DNA from: Dyella jiangningensis
GTDB taxonomy: Bacteria > Pseudomonadota > Gammaproteobacteria > Xanthomonadales > Rhodanobacteraceae
Direction: 5' to 3'
Length of the DNA stretch: 64,000 nt
Assembly (NCBI RefSeq): GCF_003264855.1
Contig: NZ_NFZS01000001.1
Location: 558,001 to 622,000 of the forward strand
Of this stretch, positions 8,047-27,189 are shown piece by piece. The notes below the pieces were generated by a model, which saw nothing but the letters and a program-made list of their open reading frames with translations, searched no databases and was not told the DNA's origin. The position numbers and the translations under genes were made by a program. Every line of letters begins with the position of its first letter. Position 1 is the first letter of the stretch.

Positions 8047-8730
8047 ATGAAGAACGTATGGAAGAAGGGCGTCGTGATCGCGTGCGCCCTGAGCGTGTCT
8101 GCGTGCGCGTCTATCGTCGGTGGCCGCTATCAAAAGGTGCAGGTCGAGGCACGCGCGGCGGATCAGAGCATTCGCGCCGATTGCACGCTGAGCAACGGCC
8201 AGGGACAGGTGCGTGTCACGACGCCGGGCACAGCAGTGATCCATCGCTCGTCACAGGATCTCAGCGTGAGCTGCCAGCAGGATGGCAAGCAGATCGCCCA
8301 GCAGTCATATGACGCAACGATCCGTGGCATGGTCTGGGGAAATATCGTCTTCGGCGGCCTGATCGGTGTGGTAGTCGATTTCTCCGATGGCGCCGCACAC
8401 CACTACCCGGACAAGGTAAGCATCTTGGTGCCCTCCCAATACACCGCAGCCGCGACCTATCCGAACACCGGGGCCCAGTCGAACGCGCATCCGTCGGCGC
8501 CGCCGCTCAGTGATCTGGCGAGCCTCGATAATCGCGTGAGCAAGTCTATGTTCAATGCCGCGCAGAACGTCGCCGCCAGTCGCCAATGCGACCGCGCTAT
8601 CCATGTAGTGATGGTCGACGGACAGCGCGCGATGTTCCGCTCGCAATGTCCGGCATCGAACGACGTGCAGATCGAATGTGCCGGGGATGCTTGCGTGGCC
8701 ATGCAACCCGCGGGCATCGCGGCCAATTGA
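8047..8730 (+). CDS. lipoprotein of unknown function
   Basis: 227 aa. A short signal sequence ends in a lipobox (LSVSAC) with the lipidated Cys at about residue 18. A middle hydrophobic stretch follows (WGNIVFGGLIGVVVDF, about 98-113). The C-terminal third contains regularly spaced cysteines (CDRA, CPAS, IECAGDACVAM). The front half resembles small glycine-zipper type outer-membrane lipoproteins. A GGGGAATGAC context precedes the ATG at 8047, and a bidirectional terminator follows. Function unknown. Confidence 0.75.
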   Translation: MKNVWKKGVVIACALSVSACASIVGGRYQKVQVEARAADQSIRADCTLSNGQGQVRVTTPGTAVIHRSSQDLSVSCQQDGKQIAQQSYDATIRGMVWGNIVFGGLIGVVVDFSDGAAHHYPDKVSILVPSQYTAAATYPNTGAQSNAHPSAPPLSDLASLDNRVSKSMFNAAQNVAASRQCDRAIHVVMVDGQRAMFRSQCPASNDVQIECAGDACVAMQPAGIAAN

Positions 8731-8761
8731 TCGGCTGAAGGGCGTTTTTGAGATGCAACTG

Positions 8762-8785
8762 GGGAGCCAGCTCATGCTGGCTCCC
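8762..8785. terminator. bidirectional terminator between convergent genes
   Basis: Perfect 10-bp stem GGGAGCCAGC / GCTGGCTCCC with a TCAT loop, between the stops at 8730 (plus) and 8822 (minus). The U-runs are poor, so strength is uncertain. Confidence 0.6.
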
Positions 8786-8821
8786 TATTCGTTCGACAGC
8801 CGACGAAGGTGCGGGTTCAGC

Positions 8822-9871
8822 TCAGCGCTGCAGGAACTTTTCCCCAATCGCCAGCGCCGTGTGATACGGCTCCGGGTCATTGCGATTGGTCAGCATCATC
8901 ACGGTGAGATGCTGTTTCGGCCAGCGGATGATCACGTTGCGGAAGCCCTGAGTTTCGCCCGAATGCCAGCGCACGTCGCCGTGGATGCGCCAGCCGAAGC
9001 CGTAGCTGTCGACGTCTTCTTCGCCAGTCACCTTGTTCTGTGCGCTGAAAGCCGCGGTGCGTGAGGCATCGGACAGCAGGCGGCGGTCATACAGCGCCGC
9101 GTCCCACTTGGCCATGTCGTCGATGGAGGAGTAGATGCCGCCGTCGCCGCGCGTGGCGCTGGTGGGGCTCTGGTCGGTGCGTGTCCAGCGGCCGTTCTCT
9201 TCGCTGTAGCCGTAGGCGCGGTGGGGCACCTCAGGGCCGCCGCGCTCGTAGAGCAGCGTATGCGTCATGCCCAGCGGCTGGAAAATGTTCCGGCGCAGGA
9301 AGTCCGGCAGCGTCTGCCCGGAGGCGCGTTCGATGATCAGGCCCAGCAGTACGTAGCCGCCGTTGCTATAGCGATACGACGTGCCCGGTGGAAAGTAGCT
9401 GCGCGGTTCGGCGGCGAGCAGTTTCAGCACGCCGGCGTCGCTGATCTGGTCGGTGGCATCGGCCGGCATCAGGTCTTCGTAGTCGATCAGGCCGCCGCTG
9501 TGATCCAGCAGCTGGCGGATGGTGATCGCGTCGTGCGCGGCGTTGAGTTCGGGCAGCCAGCGGCGCACGCGATCGTCGAGCGAGAGCTTGCCGCGTTCCG
9601 ACAACAACAGGATGCCCGCGGCGGTGAACTGCTTGCTCACCGAAGCAAGCCGATAGTTCGTCTTCGGCGTGGCGACTTCGTGCGATTCGAGCACGGCCAG
9701 GCCGTAGCTCTTGCGCAGCACGGCCTTGCCGTCCTTGATCACCAGCAGCGACGCGCTCGGCACGTCACCCTGGTAGGCCTTCATCATCGCGTCGATATCG
9801 GCGGTGTCCGGCGACGCGGCACGGCTGGTCGCACACAACAGAAGGGAGAGCAGCAAGGCAAACGTGCGCAT
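8822..9871 (-). CDS. exported serine hydrolase, class C beta-lactamase fold
   Basis: 349 aa from ATG 9871 (AAGG about ten bases upstream; an ATG six codons earlier lacks a ribosome site). Signal peptide about 1-19 (ends SRAA). The catalytic motif SVSK puts the nucleophile at S77 and general base at K80. The tyrosine motif is Y168-S-N170, and a third motif HSG lies near residue 305. The family holds D-Ala carboxypeptidases, D-aminopeptidases and esterases. As the last gene of the leftward cluster, after a VanX-type dipeptidase, a role in trimming D-amino-acid-containing peptides in the periplasm is the best guess, not proven. Confidence 0.85.
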   Translation of the reverse strand: MRTFALLLSLLLCATSRAASPDTADIDAMMKAYQGDVPSASLLVIKDGKAVLRKSYGLAVLESHEVATPKTNYRLASVSKQFTAAGILLLSERGKLSLDDRVRRWLPELNAAHDAITIRQLLDHSGGLIDYEDLMPADATDQISDAGVLKLLAAEPRSYFPPGTSYRYSNGGYVLLGLIIERASGQTLPDFLRRNIFQPLGMTHTLLYERGGPEVPHRAYGYSEENGRWTRTDQSPTSATRGDGGIYSSIDDMAKWDAALYDRRLLSDASRTAAFSAQNKVTGEEDVDSYGFGWRIHGDVRWHSGETQGFRNVIIRWPKQHLTVMMLTNRNDPEPYHTALAIGEKFLQR

Positions 9872-9902
9872 CGGTACGACCCTTGTCATCGGAAGTGGGC
9901 GA

Positions 9903-10622
9903 TCACTGCACCGGCACGTCGTAGATCGTGTCGGGCGTGGGTTCGGGCGTCAGGGTGTAATGCCACCATTCCATGGCGTAGTTGCGGAAGCCCTCGCGTT
10001 CCATCGCGGCGCGCAGCAGTTCGCGATGGGCGTGTTGCGTCGGCGTGGCCTGCGGCGACTCGGTGTTGGCCAGCGTGCCGAAGTAGTCGAACGACGTGCC
10101 CATGTCGAGCGGCTTGCAATGCGCGTCATGCGCGTCGCACTGCGTCATCGTGAGATCGATGGTGGCGCCGCGGCTGTGGCCGGACACCGGGGCGATGTAG
10201 TCGCCGAGCAGTGCGCTCTTGTCCAGGGTGGGATAATGCTTGGGCTTGGTGCGTTGGTCGGCGAGGTCACCCGCCCAGCGCACGAAATGCGCCACGGCAC
10301 GCGCCGGCCGGTAGCAGTCGAAAATCAGCAGGCCGCGGTGCTGCGCGTGCAGATCGCGCTCCACGCGCGCCAACGCCTCGGCGGCCGGCTTCAGCAGGAA
10401 ACACTTGGGTGCGAGATAGCCGTCCACCGGCCTGCCGACGAAGTTGTCGCTGCCGGCGTACTTGATGTCTTCGGCGATGTCGGGTGCGAGCGAGCGGATA
10501 TCCACCAGTCCGGCCTGATCGGCGGTCTTTGCGGATGACAGGGCCGGCGTGCCGTCTGCCTTCGCTTGCGTGCCGAGCAGCAGCGCGGACAGCACGAGGA
10601 TGGAACGAAGGGCGCTATTCAC
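9903..10622 (-). CDS. D-alanyl-D-alanine dipeptidase, VanX/DdpX family
   Basis: 239 aa, GTG start at 10622 overlapping the upstream gene by eight bases. Signal peptide about 1-22. The M15D zinc motifs are present: SGHSRGATIDLT supplies His and Asp ligands, and EWWHY supplies the catalytic Glu and third His ligand. DCYRPARA matches the conserved Arg-containing segment. The enzyme splits D-Ala-D-Ala. There is no vanA or vanH beside it, so this is the catabolic/recycling type (compare E. coli DdpX) rather than glycopeptide resistance. Location is probably periplasmic, within the stem-peptide degradation operon. Confidence 0.9.
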   Translation of the reverse strand: MNSALRSILVLSALLLGTQAKADGTPALSSAKTADQAGLVDIRSLAPDIAEDIKYAGSDNFVGRPVDGYLAPKCFLLKPAAEALARVERDLHAQHRGLLIFDCYRPARAVAHFVRWAGDLADQRTKPKHYPTLDKSALLGDYIAPVSGHSRGATIDLTMTQCDAHDAHCKPLDMGTSFDYFGTLANTESPQATPTQHAHRELLRAAMEREGFRNYAMEWWHYTLTPEPTPDTIYDVPVQ

Positions 10623-12183
10623 AGCCGTGCTCCCGGTGGAATGCCAGGTCCTCGAAATCGTTGCTGAAATCGGCTTTCGGATCGACCTTGCTCATGTGCA
10701 TCGCCTCGCCCGCACGCGCCGGGAAATCCATCCAGGCATCGACTTCGCCCTTGTCCCAGTGCACCAGGTAGCGTTGGCCTGCACGCATCACCGTACCCAC
10801 CAGGCGCGGCGATTTGGCCGACGTGAAGCGCACGGCGCCATCTCGCGGACACAGCGTGATCGTGCCGAACCATGGGTCGCGCCACTGGCCCAGCTGTGTT
10901 GCGAGCTCCTTCACGGTTGCCGGTTGCGTGACCGGCTCAGGCGCCTTGTGCTCGGGTGCCGCCGTGTCGGCATCGAGCTTGTCGGCGTACCAGTTGGCAT
11001 CGTGCGGATCGGCGGGTGCGGTGAAGTGCTTGGTGAGCGTCTCGATGAGCACGGTGCGTGCATCCTCCGCTTCGCTGTTGATCAACACCACGAAGCCGGA
11101 TTGACGGTTCGGCAGCAGCACCATCGCCGAATACATGCCTGATAGCGTGCCCGTGTGCGACACGGTGAACTGGCCATCGACATCGGCGAGACGCCAGCCG
11201 TAACCGTAGGCATAAAACCGCGTGCCATCCCATTCGCGACGGTGCTTCGAGATCGGCATGGGCGTGTACGGCGTCCACACGGTCTGCCGTTGCGCCGGCG
11301 TCAACCAGGCGAGTTGCGCGGGTGTGGGCACCAGCCAGTTGCGCGCCCACGTCAGCATGTCGTCGAGGCTGCAGCGCACACCGCCCGCCGCAGCGGAGGT
11401 AATGTCAGGCACGATCGCATCGTCCGCGTTGAGGACCACGTTGTGGCCGTCCTCGTAGGCGTGCGGTTGCGCGACATTGCCCACGGCATCGCGGTTCCAT
11501 GGGCCGATCTGGCAGCGCGAAAGGCCGAGCGGCTCGAACAACTCGCGGCGCAGCAGCTTGTCGTAACTGTCGTGCCCCGCTGCCGCGGCCACTTCGCCCG
11601 CGATCACATAGAGCAGGTTGTCGTACGCATAGCCCGCACGAAAGCTGTAGGCCGGCTTGAGATAGGCGAGACCGTGGAGGATGTCCTGCCGAGTGAACGC
11701 GTTGGGCTCGGGCCACAGCATCAGGTCGCCCGCGCCTTCGCGCAGGCCGCTGCGATGTGTCAGCAGGTCGCCCACCTGCATGTGTTCGGTGACCCAGGGG
11801 TCGTTCATGCGGAAGCTGGGCAGGTATTTGCGCACCGGGTCGTCCCAGTGCAGCTTGCCCTCCTGCACGAGGCGCGCGAGCAGGGTGCTGGTCATCGCCT
11901 TGCTGTTGGAGGCGATCTTGAACAGCGTGTTTTCGTCGATGGCTTCGCCGGTACCCGCGCGGCGCTCACCTTTCGTGCGCATGTAGACGACCTTGCCGTG
12001 GTCGATCACGCCCACGGCGACGCCGGCGAGGTGATAACGCGCGGCCACCGTATCGACGATGGCATCGAGCTTGGGGTCCGGCTGGGTGGCGAACGCCGAC
12101 GTGGCAAGCGTGGCGCCCAGCAGCGCGGCGACCACGCGCCGCGCGCCCGTACGACGCGCGGCGCTACGGTCAGCGCTTCCCAT
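10615..12183 (-). CDS. exported serine hydrolase with C-terminal extension
   Basis: 522 aa from ATG 12183. A twin-basic N-terminus and hydrophobic core (residues 16-32) look like a signal peptide. The beta-lactamase-like domain has S92-N-S-K95 as the SxxK motif, a YDN motif (GYAYDNLLY) and HTG (SHTGTLSG). A C-terminal domain of about 110 residues (LATQLGQWRDPWFGTITL...) resembles the DUF3471-type lipocalin-like tail of such hydrolases. It starts 14 bases inside the M19 dipeptidase gene and ends inside the start of the VanX gene, a sign of tight operon packing. Likely acts on D-amino-acid peptides or amides; substrate unknown. Confidence 0.87.
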   Translation of the reverse strand: MGSADRSAARRTGARRVVAALLGATLATSAFATQPDPKLDAIVDTVAARYHLAGVAVGVIDHGKVVYMRTKGERRAGTGEAIDENTLFKIASNSKAMTSTLLARLVQEGKLHWDDPVRKYLPSFRMNDPWVTEHMQVGDLLTHRSGLREGAGDLMLWPEPNAFTRQDILHGLAYLKPAYSFRAGYAYDNLLYVIAGEVAAAAGHDSYDKLLRRELFEPLGLSRCQIGPWNRDAVGNVAQPHAYEDGHNVVLNADDAIVPDITSAAAGGVRCSLDDMLTWARNWLVPTPAQLAWLTPAQRQTVWTPYTPMPISKHRREWDGTRFYAYGYGWRLADVDGQFTVSHTGTLSGMYSAMVLLPNRQSGFVVLINSEAEDARTVLIETLTKHFTAPADPHDANWYADKLDADTAAPEHKAPEPVTQPATVKELATQLGQWRDPWFGTITLCPRDGAVRFTSAKSPRLVGTVMRAGQRYLVHWDKGEVDAWMDFPARAGEAMHMSKVDPKADFSNDFEDLAFHREHGCE

Positions 12184-13390
12184 GGTTTGCCGTGGCGTGC
12201 TGTTCCACCTCGCCCCACACGCGCAGCAGGTTGCCGCCCCAGATCTTGGCGATGTCCTGGTCGCTGAAGCCGGCGCGTCGCAGTGCGGCGGTGAGATTGC
12301 GCGTCTGCGTCGCGTCGTTCCAGCCGGCCAGGCCGCCACCGCCGTCGAAATCCGAGGCGATGCCCACGTGATCGATGCCGGCGACGTCGACGATGTGCTT
12401 GACGTGCTTGACGTAGTCATCGACGGTCGGTGGCGGGAGCGCTGCATCGATGCGCTTCATGCCTTCGATGTAGGCGGGCAGGTACTCGTGCTTCTCGCTG
12501 TCGAATTCCTTGTCGCCGGCCTGCTTGGCAATCTGCGCTTGCAGCGCCTTCTGCGCCAGCTGGCGCGCCGGATCGAGCCGGATGAAATCCTGCACGCCGA
12601 CGACCTGGATCACGCCGCCCTTGGCGGCGATGGCGCGCAACAATTCATCGGACAGGTTGCGCGGGTGATTGTCGAGCGCACGCGCCGCCGAATGCGAGGC
12701 GATGATGGGCGCGGTGGACAGGGCCAGCACGTCGCGTACGCATCGGTCGGAGGAATGCGAGACGTCCACCATGATGCCCAGCTCGTTGTCGCGCTTGACC
12801 ACGTCGCGGCCGAAATCGGTGAGGCCGTATTCGGGCAGCGGCGTATCGCCCAGGCTCGCTTCCGGCGTCGAGCTGGTGCACAGGTCGTTGTTGCCCATGT
12901 GCGCCAGGCCTACGTAGCGAGCGCCGCGTTTGTACGCCTCGTCGAGGTTCTTGATGTCGTGTCCCAGCGAATAGCCGTTCTCGACACCGATCATTGCCGA
13001 CAGCTTGCCCGCGGCCTTGTTCGCGCGCACCTGCGCCGGCGACGTGGCCATCGCGATGCGGTCGGGATAGGTGTGCACCATCAGGTCGATGGCGTCGTAC
13101 TTCTGTTTCGCCTGTTCCATCGCATGCTTGTAGCCTTCCGGCGTCAGCGGGCCTTGCTCGACGTAGACGATGAAGAACACGGCGTCGAGGCCGCCGCGCT
13201 TCATCTTGTCCAGGTCGACCTGCAGCGGCGTTTGCTTGCCCACGTCGAAGCGCGGGTCATGCATCAGGCCGAACGGGATGTCCACATGGGTGTCGAGCGT
13301 GATCGGCGGATCCTGCTGTGCGGCGGATGCGGTGCCGCCGAAGGCCAGTGCAAGGACGATCGCACTAACAAGAATGTTAAAACGCTTCAT
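12170..13390 (-). CDS. membrane dipeptidase-type zinc peptidase, family M19
   Basis: 406 aa with signal peptide (MKRFNILVSAIVLALAFGG, cut after ASA). The M19 signatures are in order: DTHVDIP (His and Asp metal ligands), ENGYSLG (bridging Glu), VDVSHSS, SHSAARALDNHPRN and IASDFDGGG near the end. Enzymes of this family cleave dipeptides and tolerate a D-residue at the C-terminal position. That fits L-Ala-D-Glu or similar fragments of murein. The ATG overlaps the lysA-like stop (ATGA). The Asn-Pro-Arg-Asn region and length are usual for the family. Confidence 0.92.
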   Translation of the reverse strand: MKRFNILVSAIVLALAFGGTASAAQQDPPITLDTHVDIPFGLMHDPRFDVGKQTPLQVDLDKMKRGGLDAVFFIVYVEQGPLTPEGYKHAMEQAKQKYDAIDLMVHTYPDRIAMATSPAQVRANKAAGKLSAMIGVENGYSLGHDIKNLDEAYKRGARYVGLAHMGNNDLCTSSTPEASLGDTPLPEYGLTDFGRDVVKRDNELGIMVDVSHSSDRCVRDVLALSTAPIIASHSAARALDNHPRNLSDELLRAIAAKGGVIQVVGVQDFIRLDPARQLAQKALQAQIAKQAGDKEFDSEKHEYLPAYIEGMKRIDAALPPPTVDDYVKHVKHIVDVAGIDHVGIASDFDGGGGLAGWNDATQTRNLTAALRRAGFSDQDIAKIWGGNLLRVWGEVEQHATANHGKR

Positions 13391-14664
13391 GCCGTCTCCC
13401 AATGTCGGGCCGGCTGCTCGCCGGCGATCATGTCTTCGAAGCTTTGGCGTTGGCGCACCACGGCGTAGCGGCCCCGGTCGAGCAGCACTTCGGCGGCAAG
13501 AGGGCGCGAGTTGTACGTGGACGACATGGACGCGCCGTAGGCGCCGGTGGTGCGGATCATCAACAGGTCGCCCGCAACGCACTCGGGCATGGCGCGACCG
13601 CGGGCGAAGGTATCGCCGGTCTCGCAGACAGGACCCACGATGTCGTATTCGGTCATCGTTCGCGTCTCCCCATGTACGGGCACGATGTCATGCCAGGCAT
13701 CGTACAGGCTCGGACGCAGCAAGTCGTTCATGGCGGCATCGAGCACCAAAAACTTGCGATGCTCGCCGTGCTTGACGCGAATGACCCGCGTGAGCAGCAC
13801 GCCGGCCTCGGCGACCAGGTAACGGCCAGGCTCGAACAGCAGGCGACCCTTGAAGCCTTCGAGTGCCGTGCGCACCACACTCACATAGGCGGCCGCGTCC
13901 ACCGGATGGTCGTGTCCTTCGCGATAGCGCACGCCCACGCCGCCGCCGACGTCGATGCTGGCGATGGCATGGCCCGCCGCCTCCAGCTCGCGCCAGAACT
14001 GCGCCACGCGCCGGAAGGCCTCGCGGTAGGGTTCGAGGCTGAGGATCTGCGAGCCGATGTGCACGTGCAGGCCATCCAGTTGCACATGGCTCAGCGACGC
14101 TTTTTCGGCGAACCAGCGTCGGGCTTCCTCGATGCTGACGCCGAACTTGTTCTCGGCCTTGCCGGTGGAAATCTTCGCGTGGGTGAGGGCATCCACGTCG
14201 GGGTTGATGCGCACCGCGGCATGCGCGGTGATGCCAATGGAAGCCGCGAGGCGTTGCAGGGTCAGCAGTTCGTCATGCGATTCCACGTTGAAACGCAGGA
14301 TCCGGGCGGCCAGCGCTTCGGCTATTTCCTGTTCGCTCTTGCCGACCCCGGAAAACACGATGCGCTCGGGCGGAATGCCTGCGCGCAACGCGCGCCACAG
14401 CTCGCCCGAGGAAACGATATCGGCGCCCACGCCATGCTCGTGCATCAGGTTGAGGATGGCGAGGCTGGAATTGGCCTTCACCGCATAACAGATCAGCGCA
14501 TCCGTGCCGTGCAGAGCGCGCTGGAGCGAGCTGATCCGGTCGCGGATGGCGCTGGCGGAGTATGCGTGGAACGGCGTGGGCAGATGGCCTGCCAACGCCT
14601 GAAGGTCGACGCCGTCGAAGCGCGACGCGGTACGGATGTCTTGCGCAATGGCGTCGATATTCAT
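13387..14664 (-). CDS. lysA: diaminopimelate decarboxylase family PLP enzyme
   Basis: 425 aa. Fold-type III PLP enzyme with the lysine of YAVKANSS as cofactor Schiff base, the HVHIGSQ and GGGVGVRY phosphate-binding segments, FEPGRYLVAEAG, and a C-terminal PVCETGDTFA carrying the conserved Cys-Glu-Thr. It decarboxylates meso-diaminopimelate to L-lysine. ATG 14664 has GAGG six bases upstream; the in-frame TTG at 14676 is rejected. Its operon contains murein-peptide hydrolases, so it may serve to degrade diaminopimelate released from cell wall rather than (or besides) lysine synthesis. A relaxed-specificity DAP/ornithine/arginine decarboxylase is the alternative. Confidence 0.88.
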   Translation of the reverse strand: MNIDAIAQDIRTASRFDGVDLQALAGHLPTPFHAYSASAIRDRISSLQRALHGTDALICYAVKANSSLAILNLMHEHGVGADIVSSGELWRALRAGIPPERIVFSGVGKSEQEIAEALAARILRFNVESHDELLTLQRLAASIGITAHAAVRINPDVDALTHAKISTGKAENKFGVSIEEARRWFAEKASLSHVQLDGLHVHIGSQILSLEPYREAFRRVAQFWRELEAAGHAIASIDVGGGVGVRYREGHDHPVDAAAYVSVVRTALEGFKGRLLFEPGRYLVAEAGVLLTRVIRVKHGEHRKFLVLDAAMNDLLRPSLYDAWHDIVPVHGETRTMTEYDIVGPVCETGDTFARGRAMPECVAGDLLMIRTTGAYGASMSSTYNSRPLAAEVLLDRGRYAVVRQRQSFEDMIAGEQPARHWETA

Positions 14665-14678
14665 GTTTGGCCTCAATC

Positions 14679-14711
14679 AAAAAACGGCAGCCCACACGAA
14701 GTGGGCTGCCG
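14679..14711 (-). terminator. strong intrinsic terminator after the TonB receptor
   Basis: Minus-strand stem CGGCAGCCCAC / GTGGGCTGCCG with a five-base loop, followed by TTTTTT. It ends only about 15 bases before the lysA start codon, so transcripts reaching lysA must read through it or start within it. Confidence 0.85.
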
Positions 14712-14726
14712 GCGGGGACGGTCAAA

Positions 14727-17726: not shown

Positions 17727-17771
17727 CTCCCCGTCTCCCCCGGTTCTTGCCGTCGTTGATGTAAAAGCGGC

Positions 17772-19286: not shown

Positions 19287-19322
19287 TGCAACTCCCCTCG
19301 CAAGAAATGGCGACACCGCCGC

Positions 19323-19362
19323 TGTGTAGCATGCTTGCAATCGGTGGTCAATAATTTATGCT
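19323..19362. promoter_or_regulatory. divergent promoter region of the murein-peptide cluster
   Basis: In the 140-base gap between the two divergent units, the plus strand has TTGCAA (19335) and TATGCT (19357) spaced by 16. The minus strand has TTGACC (19351 to 19346) and TACACA (19328 to 19323) spaced by 17. The two promoters would overlap, so one regulator could switch both. An imperfect palindrome TGAATTAGATATTCCA lies at 19379-19394, where an operator for the RpiR-type regulator could be. Predicted by eye only. Confidence 0.4.
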
Positions 19363-19426
19363 TCGACCGAAACCTGTCTGAATTAGATATTCCATGACAG
19401 GCGATCAGGGGAACCAGAGGGGACGC

Positions 19427-20578
19427 ATGATCCACACGGCCTGGCCTTATCTCGCTGTCATGTTGCTGGCGGCGGGCCTGTTTCCCGCCTTGGAGCGGCG
19501 TTTCAAGTGGCGGTTTTTCGAAGTGCTGCCGCCCATCGTTCTCACCTATCTGCTGGTAACCGCGCTGGCGGTCACCGGGCTGTGGCAGGTGAACGAGGAG
19601 ATCCGCGCCACGCAGACCCTGTTGATCGGGCACATGGTGCCGGCCCTGCTGTTCCTGCTGATGATCAATTGCGACCTGCTCGCGATCCTTCGGCTGGGGC
19701 CGCGTGTTCTTGCGGTGTTCTTCGTCACGATGATCTGCCTGTTCGTGGCCTTCATCGCGACCTTCCTGGTGTTCCGCTACTGGCTGTCGGGCAATGCCTG
19801 GCAACCCCTGGCGGCGCTTTCCGGCAGTTGGGTCGGCGGAACGGCCAACATGGTGGCGGTGAAGCAGGCCATCGGTATGCCGGATCGGCTGCTGGCCATG
19901 TCATTGCTCACCGACGCGCTGTGCTACTCCATGTGGGTGGTGGTGCTGTTCGGCCTGGGCCGCCTGGCGACGAGCTTCAACCGCTGGACGCGCGCCAAGT
20001 CCAGCGCGGACATGGTGGTCGAAGAGGCTCGCAGCCATGGTCCGACCACGCCGGAGAACGTCTTGCTGTGGCTGGGCATGGCCCTGCTGGTGGGCGCCTT
20101 CTCGGCGTGGCTCGCCGATCGCCTGCCCACCACCGACATGGTCTCGCCCACCACCTGGACCATCATGCTCGCCACCGGCTTCGGGCTGGTCGCGGCGCAG
20201 ACGCCGCTGTCGCGTTTCGCCGGCGCCAACACGATCTCCAGCGCCATGCTGATCAGCGTGGTGGCCGTGCTGGCCTCGCAGAGCAACTTCGAGGGCATCG
20301 GTTCGGCGCCGCTCTACCTGATGTGTGGCATCAGCATCATCGCGATCCATGCGGTGCTGCTGGCACTCGCCGCACGCGTGTTCCATTTCGATCTCTACCT
20401 GTGCGGCATCTCCTCGCTCGCCTGCATCGGCGGCGTGGCGGCGACGCCCATTCTTGCGGCCAGCTATTCGCGCTCGCTGGTGCCGGTGGGCATCCTGCTG
20501 GCGCTGCTCGGCTATATCCTCGGTACCGCGTTCGGTCTGCTGGTGGCGTCGGTGATGTCGTCGCTGGCCATTGCATAG
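19427..20578 (+). CDS. DUF819 family integral membrane protein
   Basis: 383 aa and very hydrophobic, with about ten to eleven membrane helices and a cytoplasmic-looking loop at about 180-210. It contains the SGSWVGGTANMVAVKQ segment and its mirror near the C-terminus (GGVAATPILAASY), the inverted-repeat pattern of a DUF819/YjcL-type transporter. ATG 19427 is preceded by AGAGGGGACGC; an earlier ATG at 19394 has no such site. First gene of the rightward operon; the endopeptidase gene follows after nine bases. A role as permease for a peptide or amino acid released from murein is inferred from neighbours. Confidence 0.85.
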   Translation: MIHTAWPYLAVMLLAAGLFPALERRFKWRFFEVLPPIVLTYLLVTALAVTGLWQVNEEIRATQTLLIGHMVPALLFLLMINCDLLAILRLGPRVLAVFFVTMICLFVAFIATFLVFRYWLSGNAWQPLAALSGSWVGGTANMVAVKQAIGMPDRLLAMSLLTDALCYSMWVVVLFGLGRLATSFNRWTRAKSSADMVVEEARSHGPTTPENVLLWLGMALLVGAFSAWLADRLPTTDMVSPTTWTIMLATGFGLVAAQTPLSRFAGANTISSAMLISVVAVLASQSNFEGIGSAPLYLMCGISIIAIHAVLLALAARVFHFDLYLCGISSLACIGGVAATPILAASYSRSLVPVGILLALLGYILGTAFGLLVASVMSSLAIA

Positions 20579-20587
20579 GAAACCATC

Positions 20588-21991
20588 ATGCGATTCATGC
20601 CCAGCGTTGCACTTGCCGTCGCCAGTCTCGTCGCCGCACCGGCCATGGCCGACAAGGGGCCCGACACGGTCCCCGTGCCGCCTTCGGGCGTCGTCGGCAT
20701 CAGCAACAACGCGATGCTCACTCCGGATTTCTGGATCAAGCAGCTGGCGCAGCCCGATCGCGTGCTGCTGGATCCCGCGGCGATCCAGGCGCAAAACGCC
20801 AGGTTGCTGCAGGTCGACCCTTCCATGCACGACCTGAAGGCGCTGCCGGCGGCGCTCGATCGCGCGAAGGTGGAGGGCTGGATCAAGGACCTGTCGCAGT
20901 ACCCCTCCAAGCCGCTATATGACGTGAACGGCAAGCCGGTGCCTGCGACGCTCAAACAGGAAGTCACCGACCAGCTCGCGCTCGATCGCGTGCCCGCGCA
21001 GCAACCCACGCGTTACGGCCTGGTGGTGCAGCGCGCTGCGCTGCGCACCTTCCCCACCGACCTGCGGGTGTTCACTTCCGTTGACGATCACGACATCGAT
21101 CGTTTCCAGGAGACGGCGGAGTTTCCTGGAACGCCGGTGGTGATCGCGCATGAAAGCCGCGACGGCCAATGGTTGTTCGTGGTGAGCCCGCGCTATGCCG
21201 CGTGGACGCGCCACGAAAATGTTGCCGAAGGTTCTTCCGCCGAAGTGTTCGGTTATGCGGGCAAGACGCCGCTGCGCATCGTCACCGGCGACAACGTCGC
21301 CACGGTGTTCACCCCCGAGCAGCCTGGCGTGTCGCAGCTGCAGCTGGACATGGGCGTCGCGGTGCCGGTGTTGTCGGATCATCCGGCCGACCAGCCGGTG
21401 AACGGGCAATCGCCGTATGCCTCCTACGTGGTGGAGCTGCCACTGCAGGGCGCCGAGGGCAAGCTCGCGTTCTCGCCCGCATTGGTGCAGCGCCTGGCCG
21501 ACACCGGCGACGCCTACCTGCCGTTGACGGAAGCCAACATCATCCGCCAGGGCTTCAAATTCCTCGGCGAACGCTATGGCTGGGGCCATGCCTACGACGG
21601 ACGCGACTGCAGCGGATTCGTGTCGGACGTCTATCGAAGCATGGGTGTGCAGATGCCGCGCAACACCAGCAAGCAGGCGATCAGCCCCGGGCTGACCCAT
21701 CAGGCATTCACCGACAAGGACAGCCACGACGCGCGCATGAAGGCCGCGCTGGCGCTGAACGTGGGCGACCTGGTCTATATCCCCGGCCACGTGATGATGG
21801 TGATCGGCAAGCTCAACGGCGCGCCCTATGTCATCCACGACACGGGTGGCATCAGCTACCTCGATGGCAGCGGCGCGATGCGCCGCGTGAAGCTCAACGA
21901 AGTGTCGGTGACGCCGTTGTTGCCGCTGATGTGGGACAGCAAGCACAGCTACGTCGACCGCATGACCAGCATCGTGCACGTCCACCCGTAA
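20588..21991 (+). CDS. SH3 and NlpC/P60 cell-wall endopeptidase
   Basis: 467 aa, signal peptide about 1-21 (ends AMA). Middle part (about 135-300) has SH3-like repeats (RYGLVVQRAALRTFP..., GTPVVIAHESRDGQWLFVVSPRYAAW). The C-terminal NlpC/P60 domain has the catalytic Cys341 in GRDCSGFV, His401 in GHVMMV and a third polar residue in VIHDTGG. Such enzymes (compare B. sphaericus dipeptidyl-peptidase VI and YkfC) cut D-Glu-meso-DAP bonds and release L-Ala-D-Glu. That is exactly the substrate of the epimerase encoded 53 bases downstream, a pairing known from Bacillus ykfB-ykfC. Confidence 0.9.
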   Translation: MRFMPSVALAVASLVAAPAMADKGPDTVPVPPSGVVGISNNAMLTPDFWIKQLAQPDRVLLDPAAIQAQNARLLQVDPSMHDLKALPAALDRAKVEGWIKDLSQYPSKPLYDVNGKPVPATLKQEVTDQLALDRVPAQQPTRYGLVVQRAALRTFPTDLRVFTSVDDHDIDRFQETAEFPGTPVVIAHESRDGQWLFVVSPRYAAWTRHENVAEGSSAEVFGYAGKTPLRIVTGDNVATVFTPEQPGVSQLQLDMGVAVPVLSDHPADQPVNGQSPYASYVVELPLQGAEGKLAFSPALVQRLADTGDAYLPLTEANIIRQGFKFLGERYGWGHAYDGRDCSGFVSDVYRSMGVQMPRNTSKQAISPGLTHQAFTDKDSHDARMKAALALNVGDLVYIPGHVMMVIGKLNGAPYVIHDTGGISYLDGSGAMRRVKLNEVSVTPLLPLMWDSKHSYVDRMTSIVHVHP

Positions 21992-22044
21992 TGGCTGCGG
22001 CCACCTCCATTCTCCCTTTCGAAGACAGGAAGCCTCCGAGTCTC

Positions 22045-23142
22045 ATGAAGATCACCGACATCCAGTTCGGCATGCTGCGGGTGCCCTTGAAGACACCCTT
22101 CAAGACGGCGTTGCGCACCGTGGGCACGGTCGAAGACATCGTGGTGATGGTGCACACCGATACCGGCCACGTCGGCTACGGCGAAGCGCCGGCCACGGCC
22201 GTCATCACCGGCGACACGCATGGATCGATCGTCGACGCGATCCGCCATTACATCGCGCCGCGTCTGATCGGCCAGGACATCGCCGACCTCAACCGGCTCA
22301 CCCAGCTGATCCAGAGTTCGATGGAGAAGAACACCAGCGCCAAGGCCGCGGTGGAAATCGCCATCTACGACCTGTGGGGCCAGCTCTACAACGCGCCGCT
22401 GTACAAGCTGCTCGGCGGTGGCGACCCGGTGATCACCACCGACATCACCATCAGCGTGGACTACATCGACAAGATGGTCGCCGATTCCATCAGTGCGGTG
22501 GAGCGCGGCTTCGAGTCGCTGAAGATCAAGGTGGGCAAGGACATCGGCGTTGACATCGAGCGCGTCAAGGCCATCTATGCTGCGGTGGAGAACCGCGCGC
22601 TGCTGCGCCTGGACGCCAACCAGGGCTGGACGGCCAAACAGGCCGTCTATGCACTGCAGACGCTGGAAGACGCCGGCGTGCGGCTGGAGCTGGTGGAACA
22701 GCCGGTGAAGGCGCGCGACCTGGAAGGCATGCGCTATGTCACCGAGCGCGTGCACACGCCGATCATGGCCGACGAAAGCGTGTTTGGCCCGATGGAAGTG
22801 ATCGACCTGATCCAGATGCGCGCGGCCGACATCATCAACATCAAGCTGATGAAGACCGGCGGCATCTCCAACGCCATCCGCATCGCCGACATCGCCGCGA
22901 TGTACGGCGTGGAATGCATGATCGGCTGCATGCTGGAGACGAGCATCAGCGTGGCGGCCGCGGTGCATGTCGCGGTGGCCAAGTCGGCGGTGATCACCAA
23001 GGTGGATCTGGACGGCCCCTCGCTGTGCCAGTACAACCCCATCGACGGGGGCGTGATCTTCAACGAGTCGGAGATCTCGGTCACCGACGCGCCCGGATTG
23101 GGAATCCGGGAGATCCGTGGCCTGGAAAAACTGAGCGACTGA
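22045..23142 (+). CDS. L-Ala-D/L-Glu epimerase, enolase superfamily
   Basis: 365 aa. Muconate-lactonizing subgroup of the enolase superfamily. K160-x-K162 (LKIKVG) gives one acid/base Lys, and K267 (NIKLMKTGG) the other. Metal ligands are Asp in LDANQ, Glu in VEQPV and Asp in ADES. The capping domain has the 20s loop FKTALRTV. It converts L-Ala-D-Glu to L-Ala-L-Glu so that ordinary peptidases can use it. ATG 22045 gives the family-typical MKITDI start. An in-frame ATG at 21991 overlapping the previous stop would add 18 residues and has no ribosome site. The regulator gene follows after one base. Confidence 0.93.
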   Translation: MKITDIQFGMLRVPLKTPFKTALRTVGTVEDIVVMVHTDTGHVGYGEAPATAVITGDTHGSIVDAIRHYIAPRLIGQDIADLNRLTQLIQSSMEKNTSAKAAVEIAIYDLWGQLYNAPLYKLLGGGDPVITTDITISVDYIDKMVADSISAVERGFESLKIKVGKDIGVDIERVKAIYAAVENRALLRLDANQGWTAKQAVYALQTLEDAGVRLELVEQPVKARDLEGMRYVTERVHTPIMADESVFGPMEVIDLIQMRAADIINIKLMKTGGISNAIRIADIAAMYGVECMIGCMLETSISVAAAVHVAVAKSAVITKVDLDGPSLCQYNPIDGGVIFNESEISVTDAPGLGIREIRGLEKLSD

Positions 23143-23143
23143 C

Positions 23144-24001
23144 ATGTCATCCCTGGTGAAAATCCGCTCCGAGCGCGACCAGATGTCGGCGGTCGAGCGG
23201 CGCATCGCCGATTTCATCCTGGAAAACGCCCAGTTGCTGCGCGACTACTCCTCGCAGCAACTGGCGAACGCGCTGGGCATCAGCCAGTCCAGCGTGGTGA
23301 AGTTCACGCAGAAGCTGGGCTTCAAGGGCTATCCCGACCTGAAATACTCGGTGGGCGAGGCGATTGCCCGCGCGGACAATGGCGACGCGGGCGAGATCGC
23401 CACCGACCTGCGCGGCGGCGAAACCGAGCTGCGCGCCAACGAGCTCTGGCGGCGCAAGTCCGAGGCCGAAGAGGAAACCCGCCTGATCAATGCGCCCAAG
23501 ACGCTGCAGGCCGTGGCCGATGCCATTGCGGCGGCAGGCTGCAAGGGCAAGGTCTTCATGATCGGCCTGGGCGACGACGACATCTATGCACGCAGCTTCG
23601 CCTTGCGCCTGTCGCTGCTCGGCATTCCGAGCGTGCACAACTTCGATGCGCCGCGCATGGCCGCGAGCGTGTCGGCCGCGGGCGCGGGCGACGTGCTGCT
23701 GGTGTTCTCCGAGCACGGCAGCCACCAGGCGCTGTGCAAGATCGGCCGCTTCTTCCGTGAGCGGCGTGGACTGCTGATCTCCGTAACTCGCCATACCTCC
23801 AACCCGCTGCGCGCACTTGCCGATCTCGCGCTGCTGGTCTCGGCACACGACGATCGCCCGTACATCCAGCCGGTGTTGTACCAGTCCGCGCTGCAGCACC
23901 TGCTCGATCGCGTCTTCGTGCAATTGTGCGAAGGCGACGAGCAGCGCCACGTTCAGTTGCTGGCGAACCTGGAACGCGTCCAGCAAGCACTCGAACCGTA
24001 G
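23144..24001 (+). CDS. MurR/RpiR-family transcription regulator
   Basis: 285 aa. An N-terminal helix-turn-helix domain (residues 1-75; LANALGISQSSVVKFTQKLG) is followed by a SIS sugar-isomerase domain (about 120-250; KVFMIGLGDDD and VLLVFSEHGSH). SIS domains in this family sense phosphosugars; MurR of E. coli senses N-acetylmuramate-6-phosphate. Located inside the operon of the epimerase and D-amino-acid dehydrogenase, it probably represses the cluster until a cell-wall breakdown product binds. The ligand may be a muropeptide-derived sugar phosphate. This is inferred. Confidence 0.9.
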   Translation: MSSLVKIRSERDQMSAVERRIADFILENAQLLRDYSSQQLANALGISQSSVVKFTQKLGFKGYPDLKYSVGEAIARADNGDAGEIATDLRGGETELRANELWRRKSEAEEETRLINAPKTLQAVADAIAAAGCKGKVFMIGLGDDDIYARSFALRLSLLGIPSVHNFDAPRMAASVSAAGAGDVLLVFSEHGSHQALCKIGRFFRERRGLLISVTRHTSNPLRALADLALLVSAHDDRPYIQPVLYQSALQHLLDRVFVQLCEGDEQRHVQLLANLERVQQALEP

Positions 24002-24026
24002 TCATCCGTAGCGAAACCGGGGTCCC

Positions 24027-24818
24027 ATGAAGCCTGTGCATCGCCATTCCCTTCTCCACGCCATGTTCGTGCTGGGCGTGGGCGCCGCGGCCTACGTCGC
24101 CGGACAGGCGTCCGCCGCGCAGGCCGACGCCAACTGGCATCAGTCGAAGCAGATGGTGCTGGTGGTCACCCCGGACTGGAACGCCGATCACGGCGTGCTG
24201 CGCACCTACGAGCGCAAGGACAATACGTGGCAGGCCGTCGGCACCGCGCAGGATGTCACCGTCGGACGGTCGGGCGCGGCCTGGGGGCTGGGTCTCAACG
24301 GCCCGCAGACCGAGGGGCCGCAGAAGCACGAAGGCGATGGCCGTGCCGCTGCGGGCGTGTTCCGCATCGGTCCGGTGTTCGGTTATGCCGACCATGCGGA
24401 TACCCGCATGCCTTACCAGGCGATGCAGATGAGCGACTGGTGCGTCGATGTCGACGGTTCGCCGTACTACAACCAGATCGTCGATGCGAACAAGGTGGGC
24501 GAGAAGGCCGTCGCCGGTTCCAGCGAGCCGATGCGTCGCGATCTTCATCTGGATGGCGACCAGCGCTACAAGCTCGGCTTCGTGATCGAGCAGAACGCAC
24601 AAGGCAAGGCCGGCAACGGCAGCTGCATCTTCGCGCATCTTTGGAAATCACCCACCGACGCCACCGCCGGCTGTACGGCGATGCCGGAATCGGCCATGCG
24701 CGGACTGCTGGCCTGGTTGAAACCGGAAGACCAGCCCGTATTCGTGTTGTTGCCGCAGGACGCCTATCGGCGTCTCGCCGCGACCTGGCATCTGCCCGTA
24801 TGGGGCAAGCAGCCTTGA
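24027..24818 (+). CDS. L,D-transpeptidase-like (YkuD) exported protein
   Basis: 263 aa with a signal peptide (about 1-34, ends SAAQA). The C-terminal half carries the YkuD-like signature, His204 (IFAHLW) and Cys216 (TAGCTAM), spaced twelve residues apart. Earlier segments (GLGLNG, AAAGVFRIG) match the beginning of the fold. YkuD enzymes make 3-3 cross-links or, in the DpaA/LdtF group, cut murein-lipoprotein bonds. In this catabolic operon a hydrolytic role is at least as likely as a synthetic one. The next gene starts 19 bases before its stop. Confidence 0.8.
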   Translation: MKPVHRHSLLHAMFVLGVGAAAYVAGQASAAQADANWHQSKQMVLVVTPDWNADHGVLRTYERKDNTWQAVGTAQDVTVGRSGAAWGLGLNGPQTEGPQKHEGDGRAAAGVFRIGPVFGYADHADTRMPYQAMQMSDWCVDVDGSPYYNQIVDANKVGEKAVAGSSEPMRRDLHLDGDQRYKLGFVIEQNAQGKAGNGSCIFAHLWKSPTDATAGCTAMPESAMRGLLAWLKPEDQPVFVLLPQDAYRRLAATWHLPVWGKQP

Positions 24819-26056
24819 GCGCGACGACGCGGGTGTTGATCGGCCTTGCGCTGGGCGCCCTGGGCGGCCTGGCGCTGGCGGCGTGGCAACCCGACCATGC
24901 GGTGCAGGTAGCCAATGCGGTACAGCCGTTTGGACGCCTGTGGCTCAACGCGTTGCAGATGACGGTGGTGCCGCTGGTGTTCGCGCTGGTGGTGGTCGGC
25001 GTGAACACGGCCAGCGACGCGGCAGCATCGGGACGCATTGCGCGACGCGCGATCGTGGCCTTCATCCTGATCCTGACCGGCGGCGCCTTGTTCGCCGCAG
25101 CCGCGGCTCCTCGCCTGTTCTCGCTGTTTTCGCACAACGCCGGACTGACCCGCGCACTGGAAAGCGCAGTCGCTACGCACGCGCCGACGACGGCCACGGG
25201 CGTGGGCTGGGCGGAATGGTTCAACGGCATCGTGCCTTCCAACGCCATCATGGCCGCGGCGCAGAGCGCGATGCTGCCGCTGGTGGTGTTCGCGTTGTTC
25301 TTCGGCTTCGGGCTCACCCGCATCGACGCGGAGCGACGGCAGCTGGTGATCCATTTCTTCCAGGCCATCGCCGACACCATGATCGTCGTCGTGCGCTGGG
25401 TGCTGTGGGTGGCGCCGCTGGGCGTGTTCGCGCTGATCCTGTCCGTGTGCGCGCGCGCCGGCCTGCACATGCTCAGCGCGCTGGGCATCTATGTACTGGT
25501 GGAATGCCTGTTGTACGTGGCGGTGACGCTGCTGATGCTGCCGGTGGCGATGGTCTGGGGTGGCGAGACATTGCGCCGCTTCGTGCCGGCACTGGTGCCG
25601 GCACAGATCGTCGCGGCCAGCACGCAGTCCTCGCTCGCCTCGTTGCCCGCGATGCTGGAAAGTGCGGAGCGCCGGCTCGGCTATCCCGCGCAGGTCAATG
25701 CGCTGGTGTTGCCCATGGCGGTGAGCCTGTTCCGACTGACCAGCCCGGTGCAGTACGTGGTGTCTGCCTGCTTCATCGCCTGGGCCTACGGTATCGAGGT
25801 GAGCGCGGCCCAGCTCGCCGCGGCGGCCTTGCTGGCCGTGGTGATCAGCCTGGGCTCGGTGGGATTGCCGGGCGCCGTGAGCTTCATGGCGACCAACCTG
25901 CCGGTGGCGCAGGCCATGGGAGTGCCGGTCGGCCCGCTCGGCCTGATGCTCGCCGTCGATGCACTGCCTGATGCGTTGGCCACCCTGGGCAACGTCACGG
26001 CCGACCTTACCGCCACCAGCGTGGTGGCGCGCCAATCTGCTGCGGAAACTGCATGA
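24800..26056 (+). CDS. DAACS-type dicarboxylate/amino acid symporter
   Basis: 418 aa if started at ATG 24800; a TTG at 24815 is an alternative that would lie in the TGA region of the previous gene. About eight membrane helices and two re-entrant loops. FNGIVPSNAIMAAAQ and the serine-rich hairpin QIVAASTQSSLASLP near residues 270-285 match sodium/proton:dicarboxylate symporters (GltP/DctA family). The typical NMDGT motif is replaced by LVLPMAVSLFRL, which argues for a divergent substrate. Coupled by an ATGA overlap to a D-amino-acid dehydrogenase, it is probably the inner-membrane importer of D- or L-amino acids (alanine, glutamate). Confidence 0.88.
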   Translation: MGQAALSATTRVLIGLALGALGGLALAAWQPDHAVQVANAVQPFGRLWLNALQMTVVPLVFALVVVGVNTASDAAASGRIARRAIVAFILILTGGALFAAAAAPRLFSLFSHNAGLTRALESAVATHAPTTATGVGWAEWFNGIVPSNAIMAAAQSAMLPLVVFALFFGFGLTRIDAERRQLVIHFFQAIADTMIVVVRWVLWVAPLGVFALILSVCARAGLHMLSALGIYVLVECLLYVAVTLLMLPVAMVWGGETLRRFVPALVPAQIVAASTQSSLASLPAMLESAERRLGYPAQVNALVLPMAVSLFRLTSPVQYVVSACFIAWAYGIEVSAAQLAAAALLAVVISLGSVGLPGAVSFMATNLPVAQAMGVPVGPLGLMLAVDALPDALATLGNVTADLTATSVVARQSAAETA

Positions 26057-27189
26057 GCACGATCACGGAAGCTGATGTCATCGTCATCGGTGCCGGCATG
26101 GCCGGCGCTTCGGTCGCCTACTTCCTGGCGCCCCACGCACGCGTGGTGGTGCTCGAGCGCGAGCAGCACGCCGGCGTGCATTCCACCGGCCGCTCCGCCG
26201 CCTTGTTCTCCGAGACCTATGGCTCGGCACAGGTGCGCGCGCTGTCGCGGGCCACGCGGCCATTCCTGGAGCGTCCGCCCGAAGGCTTCGCCCAGCATCC
26301 GATCCTGTCGCCGCGTGGCACGGTGATCATCGGCAGCAGCGAGCAGGCGGGCGCCGTGCAGGCGATGTACGAGGAGATGGCGCCGCTCGGCGATGGCGTG
26401 CGCATGGTCGACGGCGACTGGTTGCGGAGCAGGGTGCCCGTGCTGCGCCCGGAAGCGGCGGAGATCGGCTTGTTCGAACCGGGCTCCGCGGACATCGACG
26501 TCAACGAGCTGCACCAGGGCTTCCTGCGCGCGCTGCGTGCGCGGGATGGCAAGCTGCGCGTCAACGTCGCCATCCGTTCGATCGAACGCGGACCGGGCCA
26601 TTGGTTCGTGGATGCTGGCGACGAAGCGTTCCGCGCACCGCTGCTGGTGAACGCCGCCGGCGCGTGGGTGGATGAAGTCGCCGCCCTTGCCGGCGTCGCC
26701 CCGATCGGCATCCAGCCCCGGCGCCGTTCGGCTTTCCTGTTCCAGCCACCGTTGGACGTGGATACCGCGCACTGGCCCTTCGTGATGGACGTGGAAGAGA
26801 CCTTCTACTTCAAGCCCGATGCCGGCCTGCTGATGGGTTGTCCCGCGAACGCCGACCCGGTGTCGCCGCATGACGTGCAGCCGGAAGAACTCGACATCGC
26901 CATGGGCATCCACCGCATCGAGGAAGCCACCACGATGACCATCCGTCGGCCCACCCGTACGTGGGCGGGATTGCGTTCGTTCGTCGCCGATGGCGACCTG
27001 GTGGGAGGCTTCGCGCCGGACCGCAACGATTTCTTCTGGGTGGCGGCGCAGGGCGGCTACGGCATCCAGACCTCCGCCGCGATGGGCGAAGCCTGCGCGA
27101 ACCTCGTCCTGGGACGCGCGCTGCCGGAGCATCTGCAGGCCGCCGGCGTCACCGCCGACGTGCTTGCGCCGCGGCGTCTCTCGCGATAG
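26053..27189 (+). CDS. FAD-dependent D-amino-acid dehydrogenase, DauA-like
   Basis: 378 aa. N-terminal Rossmann motif VIGAGMAGAS, HSTGRSAA (FAD loop), FYFKPDAGLLMGCPANADPV, HDVQPEELDIA, TWAGLRSFVADGDLVGG and WVAAQGGYGIQTSAAMGEA. From memory, these segments closely track D-arginine dehydrogenase DauA of Pseudomonas aeruginosa. The enzyme oxidises D-amino acids to 2-oxo acids and ammonia and passes electrons to the respiratory chain. No dauB partner is present. Here it would burn D-Ala or other D-amino acids freed by the hydrolases. Last gene of the seven-gene rightward operon. Confidence 0.9.
   Translation: MSTITEADVIVIGAGMAGASVAYFLAPHARVVVLEREQHAGVHSTGRSAALFSETYGSAQVRALSRATRPFLERPPEGFAQHPILSPRGTVIIGSSEQAGAVQAMYEEMAPLGDGVRMVDGDWLRSRVPVLRPEAAEIGLFEPGSADIDVNELHQGFLRALRARDGKLRVNVAIRSIERGPGHWFVDAGDEAFRAPLLVNAAGAWVDEVAALAGVAPIGIQPRRRSAFLFQPPLDVDTAHWPFVMDVEETFYFKPDAGLLMGCPANADPVSPHDVQPEELDIAMGIHRIEEATTMTIRRPTRTWAGLRSFVADGDLVGGFAPDRNDFFWVAAQGGYGIQTSAAMGEACANLVLGRALPEHLQAAGVTADVLAPRRLSR

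Follow-up and report, generated by a model that had tools for sequence, protein, structure and literature searches.

A conserved divergent gene cluster of Dyella jiangningensis with a probable role in the use of peptidoglycan stem peptides

A 64,000-nucleotide stretch of the Dyella jiangningensis genome (contig NZ_NFZS01000001.1, positions 558,001 to 622,000; hereafter the window) contains an 18.4-kb cluster of 14 genes in two divergent operons (Table 1) that is probably a utilization system for peptidoglycan stem peptides, reaching from the outer membrane to the cytoplasm. An initial annotation had delimited the two operons, and its boundaries coincide exactly with the outermost gene ends, at 8822 and 27189. 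The families it named were confirmed by the Pfam and NCBIfam profile matches from which all family assignments were taken (gene starts were picked by eye); its count of 13 genes should have read 14, the sum of its own list. Intergenic spacing inside the operons is -19 to +53 nt, and 146 nt separate the two. The cluster is flanked by trpE (window positions 5644-7119, named by the look of its sequence) and trpG (about 28334-28930).

Table 1. Features of the cluster, with window positions, strand, and supporting evidence
Feature	Position	Strand	Evidence
S12 SxxK serine hydrolase (S12-A), probably exported	8822-9889	-	PF00144 E 4.7e-73; best NCBIfam model D-aminopeptidase, under cut-off
VanX-like M15 D-Ala-D-Ala dipeptidase, probably exported	9903-10622	-	PF01427; PDB 1r44 E 3e-38
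Second S12 SxxK serine hydrolase (S12-C), probably exported	10615-12183	-	PF00144; best NCBIfam model AmpH, under cut-off
M19 membrane-dipeptidase-type dipeptidase, probably exported	12170-13390	-	PF01244 E 8e-98; PDB 3b40 E 1e-64
LysA, probable second diaminopimelate (DAP) decarboxylase, predicted cytoplasmic	13387-14676	-	TIGR01048 471 bits (cut-off 297.9); N-terminus not signal-like
TonB-dependent receptor, presumably OAR-type	14727-17726	-	CarboxypepD_reg, Plug, and beta-barrel Pfam matches
Transglutaminase-like cysteine hydrolase, probably exported	17772-19280	-	PF01841
Putative divergent-promoter element GGTCAATAATTTATGCTTC, conserved	19346-19364	no strand	by eye and conservation
Operator-like palindrome GAAT-N5-ATTC	19380-19392	no strand	33 nt past start of GTCAATAA
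DUF819 permease, predicted symporter, CitS-like fold	19427-20578	+	PF05684 E 7e-73
SH3b-NlpC/P60 protein, predicted exported, probable gamma-D-Glu-DAP endopeptidase	20588-21991	+	SH3_6, NLPC_P60; PDB 3m1u E 2e-27
Predicted L-Ala-D/L-Glu dipeptide epimerase (YkfB-like), predicted cytoplasmic	22045-23142	+	best PDB 1jpm/1tkk E 5e-102
MurR/RpiR-type regulator, altered phosphate site	23144-24001	+	HTH_6 and SIS, both over Pfam cut-offs
YkuD-like protein, predicted exported, probable L,D-carboxypeptidase	24027-24818	+	PF03734 just under cut-off
DAACS (SDF) amino-acid symporter	24800-26056	+	PF00375 E 6e-77
DauA-type flavin adenine dinucleotide (FAD) D-amino-acid dehydrogenase, altered side-chain pocket	26053-27189	+	PDB 3nyc (DauA) E 2.6e-130

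A family-wide search recovered the epimerase gene from 101 of 233 genomes and 16 of 26 genera. Sixty loci were picked from these 101 genomes for genus spread; they are epimerase-positive by construction and end at 20 kb or a contig edge, so that absences are upper bounds. Genes were counted as present when matched over half their length or more at ≥40% identity, with overlapping matches removed. At least 10 of the cluster genes were present at 42 of the 60 loci, and such loci occurred in 13 of the 16 genera; the complete 14-gene set was recovered at 20 loci from nine genera. NlpC/P60 and the epimerase were present at all 60 loci, followed by the genes for the YkuD-like protein (57), DUF819 (55), VanX-like protein (49), transglutaminase-like protein and RpiR (47 each), DAACS (44), M19 (43), S12-C and TonB receptor (40 each), DauA-like enzyme (39), S12-A (38), and LysA (35). 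The transglutaminase-like and RpiR genes co-occurred fully, with both at 47 loci and neither at 13. The search for co-occurrence in Rhodanobacteraceae and xanthomonads that the initial annotation had proposed thus came out in its favor, and since gene order is kept across genera, the grouping is not a chance juxtaposition.

A scan of named genomes matched at least 542 loci, and the best 80 of these include loci from Dyella, Rhodanobacter, Frateuria, Luteibacter, Fulvimonas, and Pinirhizobacter, and also from Dokdonella, Lysobacter, Luteimonas, Pseudoxanthomonas, and Thermomonas. Within that set the window cluster was nearest to Dyella, and a D. jiangningensis locus (L133) matched it at 92-99% over the 12 of 14 proteins present. 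trpG was seen at 15 of the 60 loci and 25 of these best 80, and trpE at 11 in each case, the other loci mostly ending too early. A short version of the cluster occupies the same trpE/trpG site in other Dyella loci (L050-L053); it has a more divergent epimerase (56-67%) and an Asp at the NlpC specificity position, and it is without DUF819, RpiR, LysA, and the TonB receptor. Same-genus relatives without the epimerase also exist (G009, G012, G064, and G068).

Catalytic residues were counted over aligned orthologs from the sampled loci, using the best match per gene. R24, K160, K162, D190, E218, D243, K267, D321, and D323 of the epimerase (R24, KxK, D/E/D, K, DxD) are kept in 60/60 sequences and correspond to the acid/base lysines, metal ligands, and DxD dipeptide motif of 1jpm/1tkk, in the active-site roles that we assume for them. 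The protein reached 251 bits against the 500-bit cut-off of NF041118, an equivalog of another subgroup, and is predicted to act on L-Ala-D/L-Glu.

The cluster LysA lies above the DAP decarboxylase equivalog cut-off, and its motif was counted in 35/35 sequences. Another lysA-type match was found in all 21 genomes searched, in a long frame of 855-1013 residues that, by its length only, we take to be a fused aspartokinase-LysA; a weaker match, probably an arginine decarboxylase, lies in a frame of 633-775 residues in 19/21. Standalone LysA above the cut-off (463-483 bits) was present in 10/21 genomes, nine of the genus of the window and one other (the window genome G000, G002-G008, G010, and G020), with weaker standalone matches in G014, G016, and G020. 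Twelve of the genomes are same-genus relatives: the eight with a standalone LysA all have the epimerase, and of the four without one, two (G009 and G012) gave no epimerase match at E 1e-40, while the other two (G001 and G011) have the short version only. Because the other lysA-type copy is present and standalone LysA tracks the epimerase, the cluster gene is a second copy that is probably dispensable for lysine synthesis. In G020, from another family of the order, none of the other cluster genes accompanies the standalone LysA (46%; L125) in the 20 kb read.

The DauA relationship of the dehydrogenase came from the PDB search, as NCBIfam alone did not reveal it. R225, R308, Y56, E249, and Y252 are kept in 39/39 sequences and include the equivalents of the carboxylate site (R222/R305) and gate (Y53/E246) of Pseudomonas aeruginosa DauA, residues that were defined together with a contact of E87 to D-Arg (PMC11193025). 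The E87 position holds Ser in 16, Ala in 13, Thr in nine, and Asn in one of the 39 sequences, and because of this replacement D-Arg is unlikely to be the main substrate. The high N-terminal hydropathy of this protein was taken as its FAD-binding strand.

By N-terminal hydropathy, the two S12 proteins, the VanX-like, M19, transglutaminase-like, NlpC/P60, and YkuD-like proteins, and the TonB receptor have export-like N-termini, and LysA, the epimerase, and RpiR do not. This measure is a heuristic and not a signal-peptide predictor, and S12-C passes it in 30/43 aligned sequences only. It suggests that the cutting enzymes are exported to the periplasm and that LysA, the epimerase, and RpiR are cytoplasmic. 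The cutting enzymes also keep their catalytic residues: S83/K86 of S12-A in 44/44 aligned sequences (38 from true loci and six that are cross-matches, to S12-C or the like), S92/K95 of S12-C in 43/43 (three cross-matches; 40 true loci), and C364/H399/D415 of the transglutaminase-like protein, for which the PDB search gave no credible relative, in 47/47. The zinc and catalytic positions of the VanX-like protein, with residue roles as we presume them, are kept in 49/49. Its sole PDB match was 1r44, and it reached 181 bits where the VanX resistance equivalog NF033115 demands 320; because the zinc-site positions are intact and this cut-off is missed, it is, on sequence grounds, an M15 dipeptidase and not VanX proper.

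The NlpC/P60 protein carries D340, C341, S342, R358, H401, and H417 in 60/60 sequences, matching the catalytic Cys/His set of YkfC. Its Y203 is likewise invariant (60/60) and lies in a YAAW stretch that aligns with YPGW of 3h41, which would make Y203 the equivalent of YkfC Tyr118; the stretch scores -1.0, which is not significant alone, and the numbering is offset from Cys238. The definition of the YkfC subfamily includes Tyr118 in SH3b1 and Asp256, which binds the free amine of L-Ala (PMC2954226). The cluster enzyme probably keeps the Tyr118 equivalent; it is not classed as a YkfC member, yet it is predicted to act like one. A lysin reading was considered and rejected: the best PDB relative, 3m1u, shares an Asn at position 256 but has no Tyr at the Y203 position.

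The YkuD-like protein bears the weakest family name, being the sole cluster protein below its Pfam cut-off (PF03734, 22.8 versus 23.4 bits for gathering). H204 and T213-x-G215-C216-T-A-M219 are invariant over 30 sequences and form the His...Cys arrangement of the family. No sequence relative was found in PDB. Pgp2 filled the top three fold matches of its structure model (mean predicted local distance difference test score, pLDDT, 80), with probability 0.99-1.00, E 2.4e-3 to 5e-3, and template modeling (TM) scores of 0.29-0.36.

On the transport side, the DUF819 model (mean pLDDT 78) matches the Na+/citrate symporter CitS (TM 0.67, E 3e-5), and published modeling of DUF819 agrees with a CitS-like fold (PMC8396727). 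Its position beside the epimerase suggests import of the acidic dipeptide. An M15-DUF819 pair is mentioned in Neisseria (PMC12671195).

The putative promoter element GGTCAATAATTTATGCTTC in the divergent gap was assigned by conservation and eye only, and strict scanning for sigma-70 promoters gave no match there. Fifty of the 62 loci examined carry it. The RpiR gene is complete in 49 of these, and in the remaining one (L088) the contig ends inside that gene, leaving 45% of it; L088 was counted as RpiR-positive. The other 12 loci, which lack RpiR, do not have the element. Beginning 33 or 34 nt past the start of GTCAATAA, a palindrome GAAT-N4/5-ATTC was present at 48/50 loci with RpiR (47/49 with the full gene, plus L088) and 0/12 without, and elsewhere in five copies in 1.197 Mb; L089 and L090 have the promoter element and no such palindrome. 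GGAAT-N4-ATTCC gave no match in the window because the spacer there is 5 nt. The 4.76-Mb window genome contains a single copy of the extended pattern GAATYANNTATTC, at this locus, and the reversed-pattern control gave none. Three Dyella upstream regions (L045, L047, and L048) have a second, half-matching TATTCC copy after the palindrome. An operator-like palindrome in the divergent promoter, tied to the presence of the regulator gene, is, at the level of sequence conservation, a new observation; its resemblance to the GGAA-N6-TTCC site of the RpiR-type regulator IolR of Caulobacter (PMC2597717) is suggestive only.

The initial annotation had offered a MurR/RpiR-type SIS regulator that could sense the product. 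The fold stands, as the protein carries both HTH_6 and SIS. Phosphosugar sensing fits it poorly. In SpNanR the phosphate is bound by S135, S179, S181, and T184 plus a backbone contact, and the four RpiR regulators compared with one another all bind phosphosugars (PMC12713135). At these positions the cluster regulators have D145 (47/47), S189 (44/47), H, Q, or F at 191 (47/47), and H or Q at 194 (47/47); the window protein, with D145, H191, and H194, has lost three of the four phosphate-coordinating side chains. A genome search of the window strain found no MurQ above the cut-off and no NamZ. Because neither was found and the phosphate site is altered, a sensor of N-acetylmuramic acid 6-phosphate would have neither the customary source of its ligand nor a matching site. 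The effector is unlikely to be a phosphosugar, and a non-phosphorylated wall product may take that place. G019, a genome of the same order, stands apart from the other 20 searched in having a MurQ gene and two NamZ genes near one another (contig 3, about 430-435 kb).

Outside the order, parts of the cluster recur beside genes of muramic acid metabolism. A class-level search for the epimerase returned 4/369 genomes at E 1e-80, all within the order of the window, and the YkuD-like protein was found in 12/369, eight of them outside it; at the phylum level, close relatives of NlpC/P60 were found in 13/398 genomes (five outside the order) and DUF819 in 7/299 (two outside). The 20-kb neighborhoods of the five out-of-order NlpC/P60 genes contained the YkuD-like gene in 5/5, the epimerase in three, VanX in two, and DUF819 and the transglutaminase-like gene in one each. 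In L232 (positions 7997-17284; another gammaproteobacterial family), DUF819, NlpC, epimerase, and YkuD genes stand directly before those of an SSS symporter, a BcrAD-type kinase, MurQ (413.6 bits against a cut-off of 302), and NamZ, and an RpiR gene lies farther on; by gene content this is a near-complete peptidoglycan utilization locus. In L237, DUF819 lies near alanine racemase, MurQ, NamZ, and RpiR, and a nearby gene looks like the same symporter type as in L232. The RpiR proteins of both MurQ loci keep GxGGS and SESGxT. Seven of the eight out-of-order YkuD-like neighborhoods were read; VanX adjoins in L119, and LysA in L121 and L123, from one family. The YkuD-like copies of L121 and L123 start without a signal-like stretch, and LysA is followed there by a membrane-protein gene that looks like a permease.

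The core of the cluster resembles ykfABCD of Bacillus and ykfBC of Bacillus cereus, where the epimerase adjoins an SH3b-NlpC/P60 gamma-D-Glu-DAP endopeptidase; export of NlpC and not of the epimerase, as hydropathy suggests here, was also proposed for B. cereus (PMC2954226). In contrast to ykf, the cluster has DUF819 and DAACS symporters, adds the TonB receptor, VanX, M19, YkuD-like, S12 pair, LysA, DauA, and RpiR genes, and carries Asn at the position of YkfC Asp256. The predicted chemistry on L-Ala-D-Glu-DAP is the same as that of recycling in Escherichia coli, which includes AmpG and LdcA steps and cuts in the cytoplasm; the cutting enzymes of the cluster appear to be periplasmic, and the genome carries AmpG-type, Mpl, and S66 genes in addition to it. 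The MpaA, YcjG, and Mpl scheme of E. coli is as described (PMC2954226). With the MurQ/NamZ muramic acid loci the cluster shares an RpiR-type regulator, and in L232 such a locus immediately adjoins the four core genes, but the cluster itself has no sugar branch and its regulator has an altered phosphate site. The dehydrogenase keeps equivalents of R222, R305, Y53, E246, and Y249 of P. aeruginosa DauA and differs at the E87 and H48 positions and in its pathway setting. Pgp2, Csd6, and Bd1075 are YkuD L,D-carboxypeptidases with a similar His/Cys arrangement (PMC10653827, PMC4599014), and Pgp2 is the best fold match, whereas the cluster protein has a weak fold score and no PDB sequence relative.

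Gene content, catalytic residues, synteny, and conservation of the operator-like site can be read from sequence; from them we infer substrates, step order, transport, and regulation. Wall peptides would enter the periplasm through the TonB receptor, where the YkuD-like protein may take off the fourth-position D-Ala as an L,D-carboxypeptidase and NlpC/P60 would split gamma-D-Glu-DAP. A YkfC enzyme releases DAP and DAP-D-Ala from free tri- and tetrapeptides (PMC9928106). The M19 enzyme would split L,D-dipeptides such as DAP-D-Ala, the VanX-like enzyme D-Ala-D-Ala, and the S12 pair and transglutaminase-like protein may trim D-Ala or cross-bridges. DUF819 would carry L-Ala-D-Glu into the cytoplasm, and DAACS single amino acids, for instance D-Ala, D-Glu, or DAP. 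There the epimerase would yield L-Ala-L-Glu, the second LysA would convert meso-DAP to lysine, and the DauA-like enzyme would oxidize D-amino acids. RpiR, bound to the palindrome, may control both operons in response to a product, probably one other than a phosphosugar. The breakdown of peptidoglycan peptides and D-amino acids proposed in the initial annotation is supported by synteny, catalytic residues, the second lysA, and the core beside MurQ/NamZ elsewhere.

Several points weigh against this reading. All of the evidence comes from sequence and models, and the function is predicted; for the substrates of the TonB receptor, the transglutaminase-like protein, and DAACS, gene position is the sole evidence. 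No sugar-releasing enzyme or amidase is among the cluster genes. DUF819 is missing from some loci that keep NlpC and the epimerase (L050-L053, L064, L114, and L115), although G013, G513, and G870 carry a DUF819 relative at another place in the genome. At the YkfC Asp256 position, NlpC/P60 has N359, with Asn in 55/60 sequences and Asp in 5/60 (L050-L053, without DUF819, and L056, with it); the enzyme probably cuts free peptides, but given this replacement it may also act on intact wall. The fold search with the YkuD-like protein gave no match at E 0.001 (TM about 0.3), and four of the seven out-of-order YkuD-like genes (L118, L120, L122, and L124) have no adjoining cluster gene. In the search of 12 relatives, GAATYANNTATTC has a single off-locus copy in each of G001, G002, G005, and G007 and four in G015, a genome of the order, and because of these copies strict single-site regulation is supported for G000 alone, by this pattern only.

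The initial annotation left open whether such a cluster would serve a cell's own turnover or the walls of other bacteria. A locus that only salvages the former, as a periplasmic side-route for stem peptides freed by the cell's own amidases, seems rather unlikely. The apparent periplasmic location of the cutting enzymes and the place of YkfC-type enzymes in recycling (PMC2954226, PMC9928106) speak for it, but that task has no obvious need of a TonB receptor or a second LysA, and the epimerase is missing from the same-genus relatives noted above. Furthermore, Mpl and the model TIGR00901, which we take as AmpG-type, scored above cut-off elsewhere than the locus in 15/15 genomes, and an S66 (LdcA-family) gene lies outside it in 11/15, including that of the window; because these genes sit elsewhere, the locus, on gene content, adds to the AmpG-type canonical route. 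Own turnover would be only part of its role, and given the TonB receptor and second LysA, we favor external wall peptides as food, possibly alongside it.

General scavenging of D-amino-acid-containing peptides, with wall peptides one source of several, is improbable. M19, S12, and DauA-type proteins are broad enzyme families, and the residues at the DauA E87 position point away from D-Arg and toward other D-amino acids; this breadth has to be set against the invariant L-Ala-D/L-Glu residues of the epimerase, the score of LysA as a DAP decarboxylase, and the core beside MurQ/NamZ in another lineage. Envelope remodeling or antibiotic tolerance, in which the cell would modify its own wall by means of the VanX, YkuD, and beta-lactamase-like proteins, has very little probability despite the VanX-like and class-C-like folds: the epimerase, LysA, and DauA-like enzyme have no role in such a scheme, and resistance VanX works in the cytoplasm, whereas the protein here has an export-like N-terminus. 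The scores fall far short of the VanX and class C equivalog cut-offs, which also ruled out a resistance island. That unrelated genes came to lie side by side by chance can practically be dismissed, given order kept in 13/16 sampled genera and the shared divergent promoter and operator-like site.

The use of stem peptides, as favored here, extends the known YkfB-YkfC type of wall-peptide pathway. The initial annotation did not know the full combination as a described pathway, and no description of it was found in the literature searched, as far as the available parts of the sources go; the YkfB-YkfC core is already described there. More tentatively, and with somewhat less than even confidence, we propose a dedicated locus, in which an RpiR/SIS protein was re-tooled from a phosphosugar sensor, of the kind to be expected in MurQ-type loci, to one that senses a wall product without phosphate (for example DAP, a D-amino acid, or L-Ala-D/L-Glu), with its own TonB receptor and DUF819 as a symporter of stem-peptide dipeptides. 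The regulator would offer a clean test case for ligand change in SIS-domain regulators, since the RpiR regulators compared bind phosphorylated sugars (PMC12713135). The proposed pathway also gives likely substrates to DUF819, the uncharacterized YkuD-like family, the TonB receptor, and the transglutaminase-like protein. Some Lysobacter antagonize other bacteria, and if the reading is true, the cluster would be a defined utilization locus for the peptide half of peptidoglycan in Gram-negative soil bacteria.

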